Shown here piece by piece: positions 49,203 to 54,550 of a DNA stretch of 64,000 bases. How positions within the stretch are numbered: the stretch's first letter is position 1; each line of letters starts with the position of its first letter. Location of the stretch: contig NZ_JSBW02000022.1 of the NCBI RefSeq assembly GCF_000772705.2, positions 1-64,000 on the forward strand, read 5' to 3'. The notes below the pieces were generated by a model. The model was not told the DNA's origin and searched no databases. It was given only the letters and a program-made list of their open reading frames with translations. The stretch is from Xanthomonas vasicola (lineage in GTDB: Bacteria; Pseudomonadota; Gammaproteobacteria; Xanthomonadales; Xanthomonadaceae). The position numbers and the translations under genes are program-made.

Positions 49203-50663
49203 TCAGAGCAGCGGCGATAACAGCCGCGCGAAGGCTTCCGGCAGGCGTGAACGCCATAACGGCCGATGCCGCACGAAACGCACTTCCTGCGCCTGTTCCA
49301 TGTCGGCGCCGATCAGCCCTGCCATCTCTGCCGCCACTGCCTGGTCGCGGAACAGCATCGACAATTCGAAATTGAGCCGGAAGCTGCGACTGTCGAAATT
49401 GGCGCTGCCGACGATGCAGACATCGTCGTCGGCCAGCAGCGCCTTGGTGTGCAACATGCGCGGGCCGTACTCGTAGATGCGCACGCCGGCTTCCAGCAGC
49501 TCGTCGAAATACGAGCGTGCCGCGTAGGTGACCAGGCGCGAATCGCTCAGCCGCGGCACCAGCAGGCGCACGTCCAGCCCGCCAAGCGCGGCCGAGGTCA
49601 GCGCCATGCGCGCGGCTTCGCCGGGGACGAAATACGGGGTGACCAGCCACACGCGGTGCTTGGCCTCATGGATGGCTGCGACCATCAGGCGGTGGATCGC
49701 TTCCCAGGACGAATCCGGGCCAGACACCAGCACCTGCGCATCCACCGTGCCTTGCGCACGGGTGGGCACATCGTCCGGCCAGAGCTGCTGGCCATGGAAT
49801 GCGGCGCGGCCCTGGCCGGTGGCATAGAGCCAGTCTTCCAGGAAAACCAGCTGCAGGCTGCGCACCACATGGCCCTGCAGGCGCACGTGCAGGTCGCGAT
49901 AGGCATCTTTGCGCACCTGCTCGTTTTCATCGTCGGTGACGTTGATGCCGCCGGTGAAGCCGACTCGGCCATCGATGACGATCACCTTGCGGTGGGTGCG
50001 CAGGTTCAACCACGGGCGCTTGAACGGCTTGAGCAGCTGCGAGGGATGAAACCAGGCGGTTTCCACTCCGGCCTCGCGCAGCGTGCGCAACACGCGCCGG
50101 GTCATCGCCGATGAGCCGATCGCATCCATCAGCAGCCGCACCCTGACTCCGGCGCGGGCACGTTCCATCAGCGCAGCGCAGATCGCGGTGCCGCTGCGGT
50201 CGGGCTGGAAGATGTAGTACTCCAGATGGATGTGGTCGCGCGCATCACGGATCGCTTCGATGATGGCGGCGTACGTGGCAGCGCCATCCACCAGCCAGTG
50301 CACTTCTGTGGCGCTGCTGGGCGCCAGCCCGGTGGTGGATTGGGCGATCTTGGCCAGCTCTGTGCAGTCGGCATCCGGCGGGCAGACGCTGCTGTAGCTC
50401 TCCATGCCCGAGCGCGAGCGCCCGCGCCGCAGCCGCTGGCGTTTGACCTTTTGCGGGCCCAGCCAGTAGTAGATCAACAGCCCCAGATACGGCAGCGCCG
50501 CCAGCGACAGCACCCAACTCAGCGTGGCCACCGGCTCGCGCTTTTGCAGCACGATCCAGGCGGCGATCCACAGCAGGTACAGCACATAGGCGGCGAGAAG
50601 GAGCGCTTCGAGGTGGGGAGTGTTGGCCAGCCAATCCCACGCGCCCTGTGCAAATGCGAGCAT
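49203..50663 (-). CDS. cls: cardiolipin synthase
   Basis: 486 aa. Two N-terminal membrane helices precede two phospholipase D domains. HKD motif 1 is H224-x-K226-x4-D231 (HRKVIVIDGRVGFTGG) and motif 2 is H405-x-K407-x4-D412 (HTKALLADDDVCIVGSANFD). It condenses two phosphatidylglycerol molecules into cardiolipin and glycerol at the inner membrane. Size and helices fit ClsA. Confidence 0.95.
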   Translation of the reverse strand: MLAFAQGAWDWLANTPHLEALLLAAYVLYLLWIAAWIVLQKREPVATLSWVLSLAALPYLGLLIYYWLGPQKVKRQRLRRGRSRSGMESYSSVCPPDADCTELAKIAQSTTGLAPSSATEVHWLVDGAATYAAIIEAIRDARDHIHLEYYIFQPDRSGTAICAALMERARAGVRVRLLMDAIGSSAMTRRVLRTLREAGVETAWFHPSQLLKPFKRPWLNLRTHRKVIVIDGRVGFTGGINVTDDENEQVRKDAYRDLHVRLQGHVVRSLQLVFLEDWLYATGQGRAAFHGQQLWPDDVPTRAQGTVDAQVLVSGPDSSWEAIHRLMVAAIHEAKHRVWLVTPYFVPGEAARMALTSAALGGLDVRLLVPRLSDSRLVTYAARSYFDELLEAGVRIYEYGPRMLHTKALLADDDVCIVGSANFDSRSFRLNFELSMLFRDQAVAAEMAGLIGADMEQAQEVRFVRHRPLWRSRLPEAFARLLSPLL

Positions 50664-52487: not shown

Positions 52488-53604
52488 CTATCTCCCCATA
52501 ACGATAGGAGGCACTGCGATTAGCCGGCGTCGAACTAGCCTGGGCAATCGCCCGAACCCAAGGCGCCGATACGCGATGGAGAACCGCTGCGCGATCAGTT
52601 CCGCAAACGGACCCTCGCCGACCATGCGCTTGCCGAACCGGCTGTCGTAGTCCTTGCCGCCGCGCATCTGCTGGATCAGGCTCATGACATGCTTGGCGCG
52701 ATCCGGATAGTGCAGCTCAAGCCACTCGCGCCATAACTGGGTGAGTTCGTGCGGCAAGCGCAACAACGTAACCGGCCGAACGTGCGCCGTGGGCTGCGGC
52801 CGCGTCCAGGATGCGCTCCAGTTCCTGGTCGTTGATCATCGGGATGACCGGAGCGACCAGCACGCCCACCGGTACGCCGGCAGCGTGTAGCGCCTGCATG
52901 GCGCGCAGTCGCGCATGCGGCGCGGCGGCGCGCGGCTCCATCTTCGCCGCGAGCCGATTGTCGAGCGTGGTGATCGAGAAATACACCGACACCAGGTTGT
53001 GCTGCGCCATCTCGGCCAGCACATCGATGTCGCGTTCGATCAACGCCGCCTTGGTCACGAAGCTGACCGGGTGGCGGGCCTCTGCAAGCACTTCCAGGCA
53101 TTGGCGGGAAATGTGCAGGCGCCGCTCGGCGGGCTGGTAGGCGTCGGTATTGATCCCCAACGCGATCGGCGAGCACTGGTAGGACGGGCGTGCGATCTCC
53201 GCGCGCAGCAGCGCGGCCGCATTCGGCTTGGCGAAGATGCGCGTTTCGAAATCCAGCCCCGGCGACAGATCCAGATAGGCGTGCGAGGGCCTGGCAAAGC
53301 AGTACACGCAGCCGTGCTCACATCCGCGGTATGGGTTCACCGACTGCGAGAACCCGATGTCGGGCGAGTTGTTGCGGCTGATGATGTTGCGCGCGATTTC
53401 CTCGGCCACCACGGTCTTGGGACGCATGGCAGTCTCGCCGTCGGCATCGAGCGCGCCCCAGCCATCGTCTATCTCGACGGCGGTGGTGACCGAGAAACGA
53501 CCGGGCACGTAGGCGGTGGTGCCGCGCCCCTTGATGACCGTGCGCGAGCTGCGGACATCGCGCTCAGCTGCCGCGCTCGCGCCGGGGAAAGAGTTCTTCT
53601 GCAT
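52488..53604 (-). pseudogene. PA0069-family (SPL-like) radical SAM protein gene, frameshifted
   Basis: From the ATG at 53604 the frame reads MQKNSFPGASAAAERDVRSS, then KGRGTTAYVPGRFS. NPYRGCEHGCVYCFARPSHA holds the radical SAM C-x3-C-x2-C cluster site. Then come DFETRIFAKPNAAALLR, VTKAALIERDIDVLAE and SVYFSITTLDNRLAAKMEPR, the pattern of the PA0069/Rv2578c family related to spore photoproduct lyase. At about 52760 an extra base (TACGTTGTTGCGC where TAC-GTG/CTG-TTG-CGC is expected) shifts the frame. The true C-terminus LRLPHELTQLWREWLELHYP and KDYDSRFGKRMVGEGPFAEL continues in another frame to 52488. The first-frame product is 295 aa ending AARTHPVMARVA. Confidence 0.82.
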
Positions 53605-53606
53605 GC

Positions 53607-53626
53607 CGTTAGTATTCTTACTAACG
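53607..53626. promoter_or_regulatory. LexA-type SOS box (TTAGN6TACTA) at the radical SAM gene start
   Basis: CGTTAGTA-TTCT-TACTAACG: perfect 8-bp arms around a 4-bp centre. It contains TTAG-N6-TACTA exactly (53609-53623), the LexA-binding motif described for Xylella and Xanthomonas. It ends 2 bp before the ATG of the radical SAM gene, so LexA binding would cover its promoter or start. Confidence 0.75.
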
Positions 53627-53735
53627 ACGCCCGGTGCAAGCGACGTGTACCGGTCCAGGGAGCGAGCACAACTGCTACGACGCAGTGCAGGGCGCAGTCG
53701 CAGCGGGGGAATGGAGAATCGGGAAACGGAAATCG

Positions 53736-53805
<70 letters not shown>

Positions 53806-53821
53806 AAAGCGCCGCCGTTGC

Positions 53822-53860
53822 GATTCCCCATTCCCTATTCCCGATTCCCTATTCCCCGCC
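53822..53860. repeat. GATTCCC-type dispersed repeat at the oxygenase 3' end
   Basis: Starts GATTCCCCATTCCCTATTCC and continues with a second GATTCCCTATTCCCCGCC, matching 18373-18390. It supplies the last codons (Gly-Gly-Glu) and the TAG stop (53849-53851) of the 2OG-Fe oxygenase gene. Confidence 0.75.
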
Positions 53861-54550
53861 GTAAAGCGCCTGCGCCGACTGAAACAAAATCCAGCTCGTC
53901 GCAATGAACTTGTCACCGCCGACCGGGCGGTTGCCGCGGTGGGTGTGGGTGAAGGCGGTGGGGGCAATCAGCAGGCTGCCGGTGCGTGGGCGGGCCTTGC
54001 GTTGCTGGAACAGGAATTCGGTTTCGCCTTGCGCGAAGTCGTCGTTGAGATACAGCGTCCACAGCAGATGCCGATGCAGCGTGTCGGCGCTGGCATCGCG
54101 CGGATACAGCTCGCAATGCCAATACGGGTAGCCGCCCTGATCGGCGGTATACCACTGCAGATTGATCGCGCCCGGGCGCAGGCAGGTGCGCGTCAGATCG
54201 CCCAACGCCTGGTCGCTCATCTGCACGATGTCCTCGGCCACCAGGCGATGCGGTGTGCCATCGGCGGTGGTCACCTGCAGCATCAGCGGTGAGATCAGGG
54301 CCTGCGGATACTGCCGCAGATAGCTGAGCACGCCGTCGAACACGGCCTGCTGCAGGCGGCTTTCCACTTCCGCCCATTCGGCCATGCCACTGATGCGCAG
54401 GTCACGACTATGTTTGAGGTCGGGGAACACACCGCCACCGATGCGGCCTGGATGCAGTTGCTGGCTCTGGCGCATGCGTTGCACGATGGCCGCGCAATCT
54501 TCGCGCGAGACGGCGTTGTCGGTGATCTGGATGAAGTCGGGTTGGCTCAT
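53849..54550 (-). CDS. 2OG-Fe(II) oxygenase-superfamily protein
   Basis: 233 aa from the ATG at 54550 (MSQPDFIQITDNAVSREDCA). The double-stranded beta-helix fold is suggested by YPYWHCELYPRDASADTLHR, with an HxE iron-ligand pair, then WTLYLNDDFAQGETEFLF, LIAPTAFTHTHRGNRPVGGD (distal iron His) and KFIATSWILF. The family uses Fe(II), O2 and 2-oxoglutarate; the substrate is unknown. The C-terminal GGE and stop codon come from a dispersed repeat. Confidence 0.78.
   Translation of the reverse strand: MSQPDFIQITDNAVSREDCAAIVQRMRQSQQLHPGRIGGGVFPDLKHSRDLRISGMAEWAEVESRLQQAVFDGVLSYLRQYPQALISPLMLQVTTADGTPHRLVAEDIVQMSDQALGDLTRTCLRPGAINLQWYTADQGGYPYWHCELYPRDASADTLHRHLLWTLYLNDDFAQGETEFLFQQRKARPRTGSLLIAPTAFTHTHRGNRPVGGDKFIATSWILFQSAQALYGGE

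Follow-up and report, generated by a model that had tools for sequence, protein, structure and literature searches.

Radical S-adenosylmethionine (SAM) genes of the SplB/COG1533 type have been described as LexA-regulated in alpha- and beta-proteobacteria (PMC3323433) and in Bacteroidetes (PMC8565304), and the SOS networks of Gram-positives and Balneolaeota likewise include a radical SAM gene (PMC7739468). PMC3765255, like the latter two, reports such a gene as part of an SOS network or close to SOS genes. For the radical SAM gene vnz_31145 of Streptomyces venezuelae, the authors of PMC9380542 give an SOS box at −61, a 19.97-fold increase with mitomycin C and a LexA chromatin immunoprecipitation (ChIP) change of 1.31, and they describe the product as similar to enzymes that repair UV thymine cross-links. 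Here, we analyze a 64,000-nucleotide stretch of Xanthomonas vasicola DNA (contig NZ_JSBW02000022.1, positions 1–64,000; the window), in which a 20-bp palindrome lies immediately upstream of a radical SAM gene of the PA0069 type (the rSAM gene). The link of such a gene to LexA, drawn in an earlier note on this DNA, was already reported (PMC3323433, PMC8565304, PMC7739468, PMC9380542). LexA control of the rSAM gene would be of a known kind, and what is added here is its Xanthomonas version.

The Xanthomonas case shares with the LexA-regulated splB/COG1533 genes the broad enzyme kind, a LexA box of the lineage upstream, and an inferred UV/DNA-repair role. It differs in its LexA1 motif, in its occurrence in only part of the genus and in the apparent displacement of a native copy, and the boxed copies described here are from Xanthomonas and Pseudomonas. 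The gene vnz_31145 is likewise an SOS-boxed radical SAM gene, but its LexA motif is actinobacterial, and it is set beside the PA0069/Rv2578c family by description only.

We computed the site with its uniqueness and conservation, the promoter geometry, the phylogeny, the locus and gene orientations, the two reading frames and the fold of an intact relative. With a probability of roughly 0.82, we take the palindrome to be the LexA1 operator of the rSAM gene, and the gene and its box to be a foreign copy (the boxed form, type A) that replaced an inverted native copy (the box-less, more distant form, type B) belonging to another promoter set; the frameshift seen in the window would have been acquired since, unless it is an assembly error.

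A probable LexA1 operator upstream of the rSAM gene

The palindrome, CGTTAGTATTCTTACTAACG at positions 53607–53626, has 8-base arms that are fully complementary around TTCT, and TTAGN6TACTA is present on both of its strands. This pattern, which the earlier note gives as the LexA motif reported for Xylella and Xanthomonas, is reportedly the Xanthomonas LexA1 motif of Campoy 2002 and Yang 2002, both of which are cited in PMC3108266. The ATG of the rSAM gene is on the minus strand at 53604, leaving a spacer of two bases (53605–53606). The description in the earlier note of a perfect palindrome containing TTAG-N6-TACTA and ending 2 bp before the start codon is therefore correct.

When the window was scanned with up to one mismatch, two matches were obtained, both at the palindrome and both with 0 mismatches (shuffles gave a mean of 0.53); 10 of 100 shuffled windows also reached two near matches, so the count within the window alone is not decisive. 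In the genome of the window (G000, a 4.92-Mb draft in 96 contigs), strict TTAGN6TACTA occurs in two places, the rSAM palindrome and the lexA promoter, the latter upstream of a 225-residue open reading frame (ORF) that reads as LexA and is followed by recA. PMC518961 describes two lexA genes in Xanthomonas and control of recA by lexA1. The pattern is rare genome-wide, without enrichment in raw count: the reversed pattern is commoner, with 12 and 15 matches on the two strands of the same genome, and the case therefore rests on position and recurrence. TTAGTANNNNTACTAA with 0 mismatches is found in the whole genome only at the rSAM palindrome, and the next matches are the lexA site with one mismatch and then seven sites with two.

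Recurrence was assessed in a survey of 35 genomes of the genus, each of which was searched for the rSAM gene, the box and the second promoter described below. The box stands upstream of the same gene in all 11 type A genomes (G000, G008, G009, G012, G013, G017, G018, G025, G026, G028 and G031), in some of them as TTAGCATTAATACTAA or TTAGCACTAATACTAA, variants with intact half-sites but without the perfect pairing. The strict pattern marks a lexA-type site in 34 of the 35 genomes, the exception being G029, whose genome is 81% complete; elsewhere it matches the rSAM site of every type A genome (11 in all), two of the island copies and a further 15 scattered places.

By sequence geometry alone, the box overlaps a promoter. 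In all 11 type A genomes, this promoter has the layout TTGNNN-N17-AATACT followed by 6 nt and ATG, and the −10 element is covered by the box. The same layout, with 7 nt before the ATG, was read upstream of lexA in 18 of the 31 scanned loci, these 18 being the ones that yielded the 19-bp lexA box. The 6-nt spacing makes a leaderless message for the rSAM gene likely. LexA1 control of the type A gene is thus well supported by sequence, and the palindrome is very probably a switch of the SOS response.

The rSAM gene and its relationship to spore photoproduct lyase

NF033668, the model of the PA0069 family, matches the first piece of the gene in the window with 383.7 bits (cut-off 360) at model positions 1–253, which by itself bears out the family assignment of the earlier note. 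Model positions 253–332 continue in another frame downstream, a break that the earlier note does not mention. Relative to an intact relative, the frame shifts around codons 280–281, and no unbroken full-length frame was found in this assembly. The part behind the shift is 97.4% identical to the intact relative, and the broken frame is either a mutation or an error of the draft assembly. Fragmented or stop-containing copies of the rSAM gene also occur in G008, G019, G020 and G034, apart from two island-split copies. The broken copies in these four further genomes may mean that the gene is often dispensable.

A CX3CX2C cluster motif is present in the window frame as CEHGCVYC, and its three cysteines are invariant in 47 relatives. 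The best match to the fold of the intact relative, by a clear margin, is spore photoproduct lyase (SPL; PDB 4FHC and mutants), with 13–16% identity in the structural alignments. A search of the PDB by sequence profile returned SkfB alone, and the cut-offs of the SPL families were missed, with 23.9 of 400 bits for TIGR04070 (window piece) and 22.1 of 27 bits for PF20903 (an island copy). The kinship with SPL claimed in the earlier note thus stands at the level of the fold and the cluster motif, whereas the low identity, the sub-cut-off scores and the lack of an invariant fourth cysteine set the rSAM protein apart. In the literature, we found no tested function for the PA0069 enzyme family, and among the matches listed for Xanthomonas and lexA1 'spore photoproduct lyase' is not mentioned.

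Two forms of the gene at one genus locus

The rSAM gene is present in all 35 genus genomes. The box is absent from the native copy in all 24 type B genomes (which include G027 and G029, where this copy is split by an island), so the expectation of the earlier note that orthologues would carry the palindrome fails in 24 of the 35 congeners, at the same locus. These box-less copies look like displaced, more distant relatives. The two types share their flanking genes, one for cardiolipin synthase and one for a 2OG-Fe(II) oxygenase, but point in opposite directions. The type A gene is on the oxygenase strand in all 11 loci, and on the cardiolipin synthase strand in the four loci with that gene in reach. 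The type B gene is opposite to cardiolipin synthase in all 22 unsplit loci; it is opposite to the oxygenase in 20 of them and in both split ones, no oxygenase gene having been found in the other two. When DNA of three type B loci (L048, L050 and L056) was compared with the window, the flanks present were 87–95% identical, and the rSAM gene was 73–75% identical and inverted; in five type A loci, the rSAM gene was 86–94% identical.

The type A protein is 62–66% identical to type B, and 71% and 74% identical to the copies carried by the islands of G027 and of Pseudoxanthomonas japonensis, respectively. In a tree of 99 rows, for which type B was thinned to 9 of 19 loci and one locus with a broken frame (L068) was dropped, type A and these two island copies form one clade (100/98), type B groups with Stenotrophomonas panacihumi (100/97), and the island copy of G029 groups with a copy from Stenotrophomonas maltophilia (100/100). 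Type A has its nearest relatives in two of the three island copies, and it appears, from these sequence comparisons, to be a foreign replacement that arrived together with its box.

Islands that split the native gene

About 31.7 kb separates the two parts of the native type B gene in G027, and about 32.5 kb in G029; in P. japonensis the native gene is likewise divided, its parts lying ∼28 kb from each other on either side of an intact boxed copy. In all three islands, the break lies inside the cluster motif, between CEHG and C-S-Y-C, so that each island breaks the native gene at one site and carries its own boxed copy. The boxes of the island copies, of the form TTAG-N8-CTAA, are located 18, 26 and 18 nt upstream of the start codon. 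Three large ORFs adjoin the 5′ part of the native gene; in G027, Pfam places one of them in Phage_integrase and the remaining two in no family, and we infer that they form a recombinase trio. The ORFs of G027 and G029 are 87–93% identical to each other and 49–58% identical to those of P. japonensis. A search of 247 drawn genomes of the family with the island recombinase gave matches in four, all at 24–33% identity, and no row for G027 or G029.

Further genes of the G027 island (L052:326-9290) code for proteins of the aminotransferase class V, DUF4007, PAPS-reductase-like and HATPase kinds and may form a DNA-modification defense set, which they resemble.

A second promoter set upstream of box-less copies and repair genes

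Regulons of DriD of Caulobacter and PafBC of mycobacteria have been described (PMC12340889, PMC6789036, PMC4211646), and the first of these papers gives for DriD a dyad over the −35 region at a fixed distance from the −10 element, with half-sites ATACGAC-N7-GTCGTAT (PMC12340889). The box-less rSAM copies likewise have, upstream of a repair-type gene, a dyad over the −35 region at a fixed distance from the −10 element. Compared with DriD, their half-sites are arranged GTCGC...GCGAC, and the regulator is putative. The pattern GTCGCN6TGMGAC-N10-TANNNT ends 6 nt upstream of the ATG in all 24 type B genomes, with no mismatch in 18 and one in 6; in the 11 type A genomes, the best match has 4 to 6 mismatches.

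A strict search of ten genus genomes gave 23 sites, all upstream of the rSAM gene, radA or a Bpt/Ate-type transferase gene, and the reversed control gave none in the same genomes. Among 60 genomes of the family, 52 sites were found in 36 genomes (reversed control, 3). The 48 sites that were read (4 sites, in G000 and G005, were left out) precede rSAM (24), recA (6), radA (3), bpt (3), dnaB (2), gyrA (2) and, once each, sbcB, rmuC and a WYL regulator, and 5 had no assignment; one protein from among the sites served to define each class, and ten example proteins were checked with Pfam, RadA being assigned by reading its sequence, as Pfam gave only KaiC/AAA. The Xanthomonas recA promoter has two mismatches to the pattern in 19 of the 20 loci read and three in the other, and the next-best match within 200 bp has 5 to 7. 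With one mismatch allowed, five genomes gave 6 to 11 sites each, and the reversed control gave 0 to 5; individual sites of this class are therefore weak. They include dinB (G000, with a similar site in G028), a macrodomain gene (G022 and G028) and dnaB (G007 and G022). The set of genes suggests that this promoter responds to damage, and we regard it as a candidate LexA-independent DNA-damage regulon.

A protein with HTH-WYL-WCX architecture is encoded in all 35 genus genomes, 75–77% identical to that of G047, and our guess is that it reads the second promoter. Self-regulation of the WYL gene was considered and rejected, since the pattern precedes it in G047 and in none of the 12 other loci read. 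A DUF763 gene also has a one-mismatch second promoter in G000 (L209:146-1474) and G028 (L203), with a near-identical site in G034, and may be an unrecognized repair gene.

Distribution in other bacteria

The surroundings of the gene were surveyed in the best 80 of 589 matches to the type A protein in named genomes, with lineages assigned from record titles. Of 26 alpha-proteobacteria, 22 had GTTCN7GTTC upstream (background, 2 of 721 windows); CTGTN8ACAG stood upstream in all 5 Pseudomonas (0 of 156) and in 3 of 18 others (0 of 518). Among 31 Lysobacteraceae/Rhodanobacteraceae (background, 0 of 953 for each motif), TTAGN8CTAA was found in 2 and the second-promoter dyad in 21. Four reversed control motifs gave at most one match per group. 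We take GTTCN7GTTC, CTGTN8ACAG and TTAGN8CTAA to be the LexA sites of their lineages. PA0069 of Pseudomonas aeruginosa and Rv2578c of Mycobacterium tuberculosis are said to be listed as LexA-regulated in older papers; our literature search found no paper that names either together with LexA.

Three unlike LexA motifs in three bacterial groups, together with a repair-gene promoter in Lysobacteraceae, thus lie upstream of genes of this family, and these lines of evidence, though indirect, converge on a repair role of the PA0069 enzymes. Among the titles and abstract openings searched, which covered few subscription papers, none reported the box on this Xanthomonas gene, the second promoter set or the islands.

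Proposed mechanism and alternative explanations

In the mechanism that we infer, with its LexA1 binding, damage induction, lesion chemistry and order of events, LexA1 on the box would cover the −10 element and repress the rSAM promoter. RecA on single-stranded DNA would trigger cleavage of LexA, upon which the promoter would open and a leaderless message for the enzyme would be made; in intact relatives, this SPL-like enzyme probably repairs or otherwise processes a thymine-type photolesion. Gene and box would have come jointly as a foreign copy, kin to the island-borne copies, and would have supplanted, within one locus but pointing the other way, a native type B gene from the promoter set common to recA, radA and other replication and repair genes. 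The genome of the window would have acquired its frameshift later, if the assembly is right.

Several observations weigh against this reading. With the frame broken, the box in the window may serve a dead gene, and its −10 element reads AATACT, a scan with the sigma-70 consensus having found no promoter there at its threshold. Identity to the type A protein is only 64.5% for the G029 island copy, which lies outside the type A clade, and the island boxes are 18 or 26 nt from the start codon, compared with 4 in type A. The rSAM tree was built without the frameshifted genes of the window's own genome and of G008. The tree of the flanking oxygenase (34 rows; 6 loci lacking a usable flank dropped) fails to show a single origin of type A, with four label changes, and is too weak to decide; type A may nevertheless have arisen once. 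No fourth cysteine is invariant among the 47 relatives, as counted without residue-level alignment to SPL, and the reaction may therefore differ from that of SPL, whose catalytic fourth cysteine is presumably C140 of the PDB titles.

The broken frame gives most weight to the idea that the box is a relic here, an intact operator with a dead gene behind it and nothing useful to control. The frameshift near codons 280–281 and the broken copies in four further genomes fit this idea, which we regard as a real possibility somewhat short of even odds; against it, the near-identity of the post-shift part to the intact relative points to a recent change or an assembly error, the assembly is a draft of 96 contigs, and both half-sites of the box are kept. 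That types A and B represent a single orthologue, flipped within its locus and rapidly diverged, without any foreign copy, is improbable. The shared locus and flanks and the presence of the gene in every genus genome would agree with such a history, but the type A protein is closer to two island copies, one of them from another genus, than to type B, the tree separates the types with strong support, and their promoters are unrelated.

That the palindrome works as an RNA hairpin (a terminator or a translation control) or as the site of another repressor is slightly less probable still. Just upstream of the start codon, it does fold well as RNA (−13.5 kcal/mol, z −3.2, with 3 of 200 shuffles as good), yet a terminator scan missed the box and matched twice elsewhere, at 53790–53821; the variant boxes of other type A genomes keep the half-sites rather than the pairing, and lexA has the same half-sites at the same promoter position. 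A palindrome arisen by chance, which the shuffled windows would by themselves allow, has a probability close to nil and is rejected on its recurrence: genome-wide only lexA shares the site, and it is kept in place in every type A genome. Our preferred reading is of a LexA1 operator, real and functional-looking as judged from sequence, on an SOS-wired and probably foreign gene of a kind already known from SOS responses, with an unexpected candidate second circuit beside it. The proposal in the earlier note of a LexA-governed DNA-damage gene gains strength and is supported as regards the box, which matches lexA in site and geometry, has lexA as its sole other genomic site and recurs throughout type A, and it falls short in that the frame is broken here.

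For the wider picture, we consider the odds evenly balanced. Lysobacteraceae would have a LexA-independent damage regulon (recA, radA, gyrA, dnaB, sbcB, rmuC, perhaps dinB and chiefly rSAM) with a WYL activator similar to DriD/PafBC; site-specific islands would cut the rSAM gene exactly in its iron-sulfur motif and bring a LexA-wired copy, and in part of Xanthomonas such a copy would have replaced the native gene, moving the enzyme between damage circuits. If true, this circuit swap, with islands bringing SOS-wired copies of the very gene they break, would be a clear case of natural regulatory rewiring, and the second promoter set would open a LexA-independent damage response in Xanthomonas relatives to direct testing.

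Coordinates and minor observations

Table 1. Locations of the features discussed (window positions unless a genome and contig are given)
Feature	Location	Strand	Basis
LexA1-type SOS box, 20-bp palindrome CGTTAGTA-TTCT-TACTAACG	53607..53626	.	sequence; kept in 11/11 type A genomes
Putative −10, AATACT, inside the SOS box, 6 nt upstream of the start codon	53611..53616	-	sequence geometry
Putative −35, TTGCAC	53634..53639	-	17 bp from the −10; lexA promoters share the geometry
PA0069-type rSAM gene (type A), codons 1-281, first frame	52762..53604	-	profile match; alignment to intact relative; frame open to 52717
Rest of rSAM gene, codons 280-357 of intact relative, other frame	52536..52769	-	alignment to intact relative
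2OG-Fe(II) oxygenase gene, conserved flank	53849..54547	-	profile match; locus comparison
Cardiolipin synthase gene, opposite conserved flank	49203..50663	-	profile match; locus comparison
Island of G027	G027:C5:34189-66907 (L051, L052)
Island of G029	G029:C2:62658-96196 (L053, L054)
Island of P. japonensis	G293:C11:354067-383007 (L071, L278, L279)
Second promoter in the genome of the window, radA	G000:C94:111014
Second promoter in the genome of the window, bpt-like	G000:C56:1311
Loci carrying second-promoter sites	L171-L193, L215-L262

Between the oxygenase and rSAM genes, the window contains 11.5 perfect copies of GCAACA (53736–53804). One of the 15 scattered genus sites of the strict pattern, TTAGCAAAATTACTA, recurs in three genomes, and at the one locus read it lies upstream of a small regulator-like ORF. 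A LexA-like palindrome, GTTAGCAAAATTACTAAC, is found in L145 (G006:C2:113183), and the same 15-mer occurs in G012:C77 and G027:C6; the ORF behind it, read in L145 only, is small and resembles an XRE-type regulator, possibly of a toxin-antitoxin operon.
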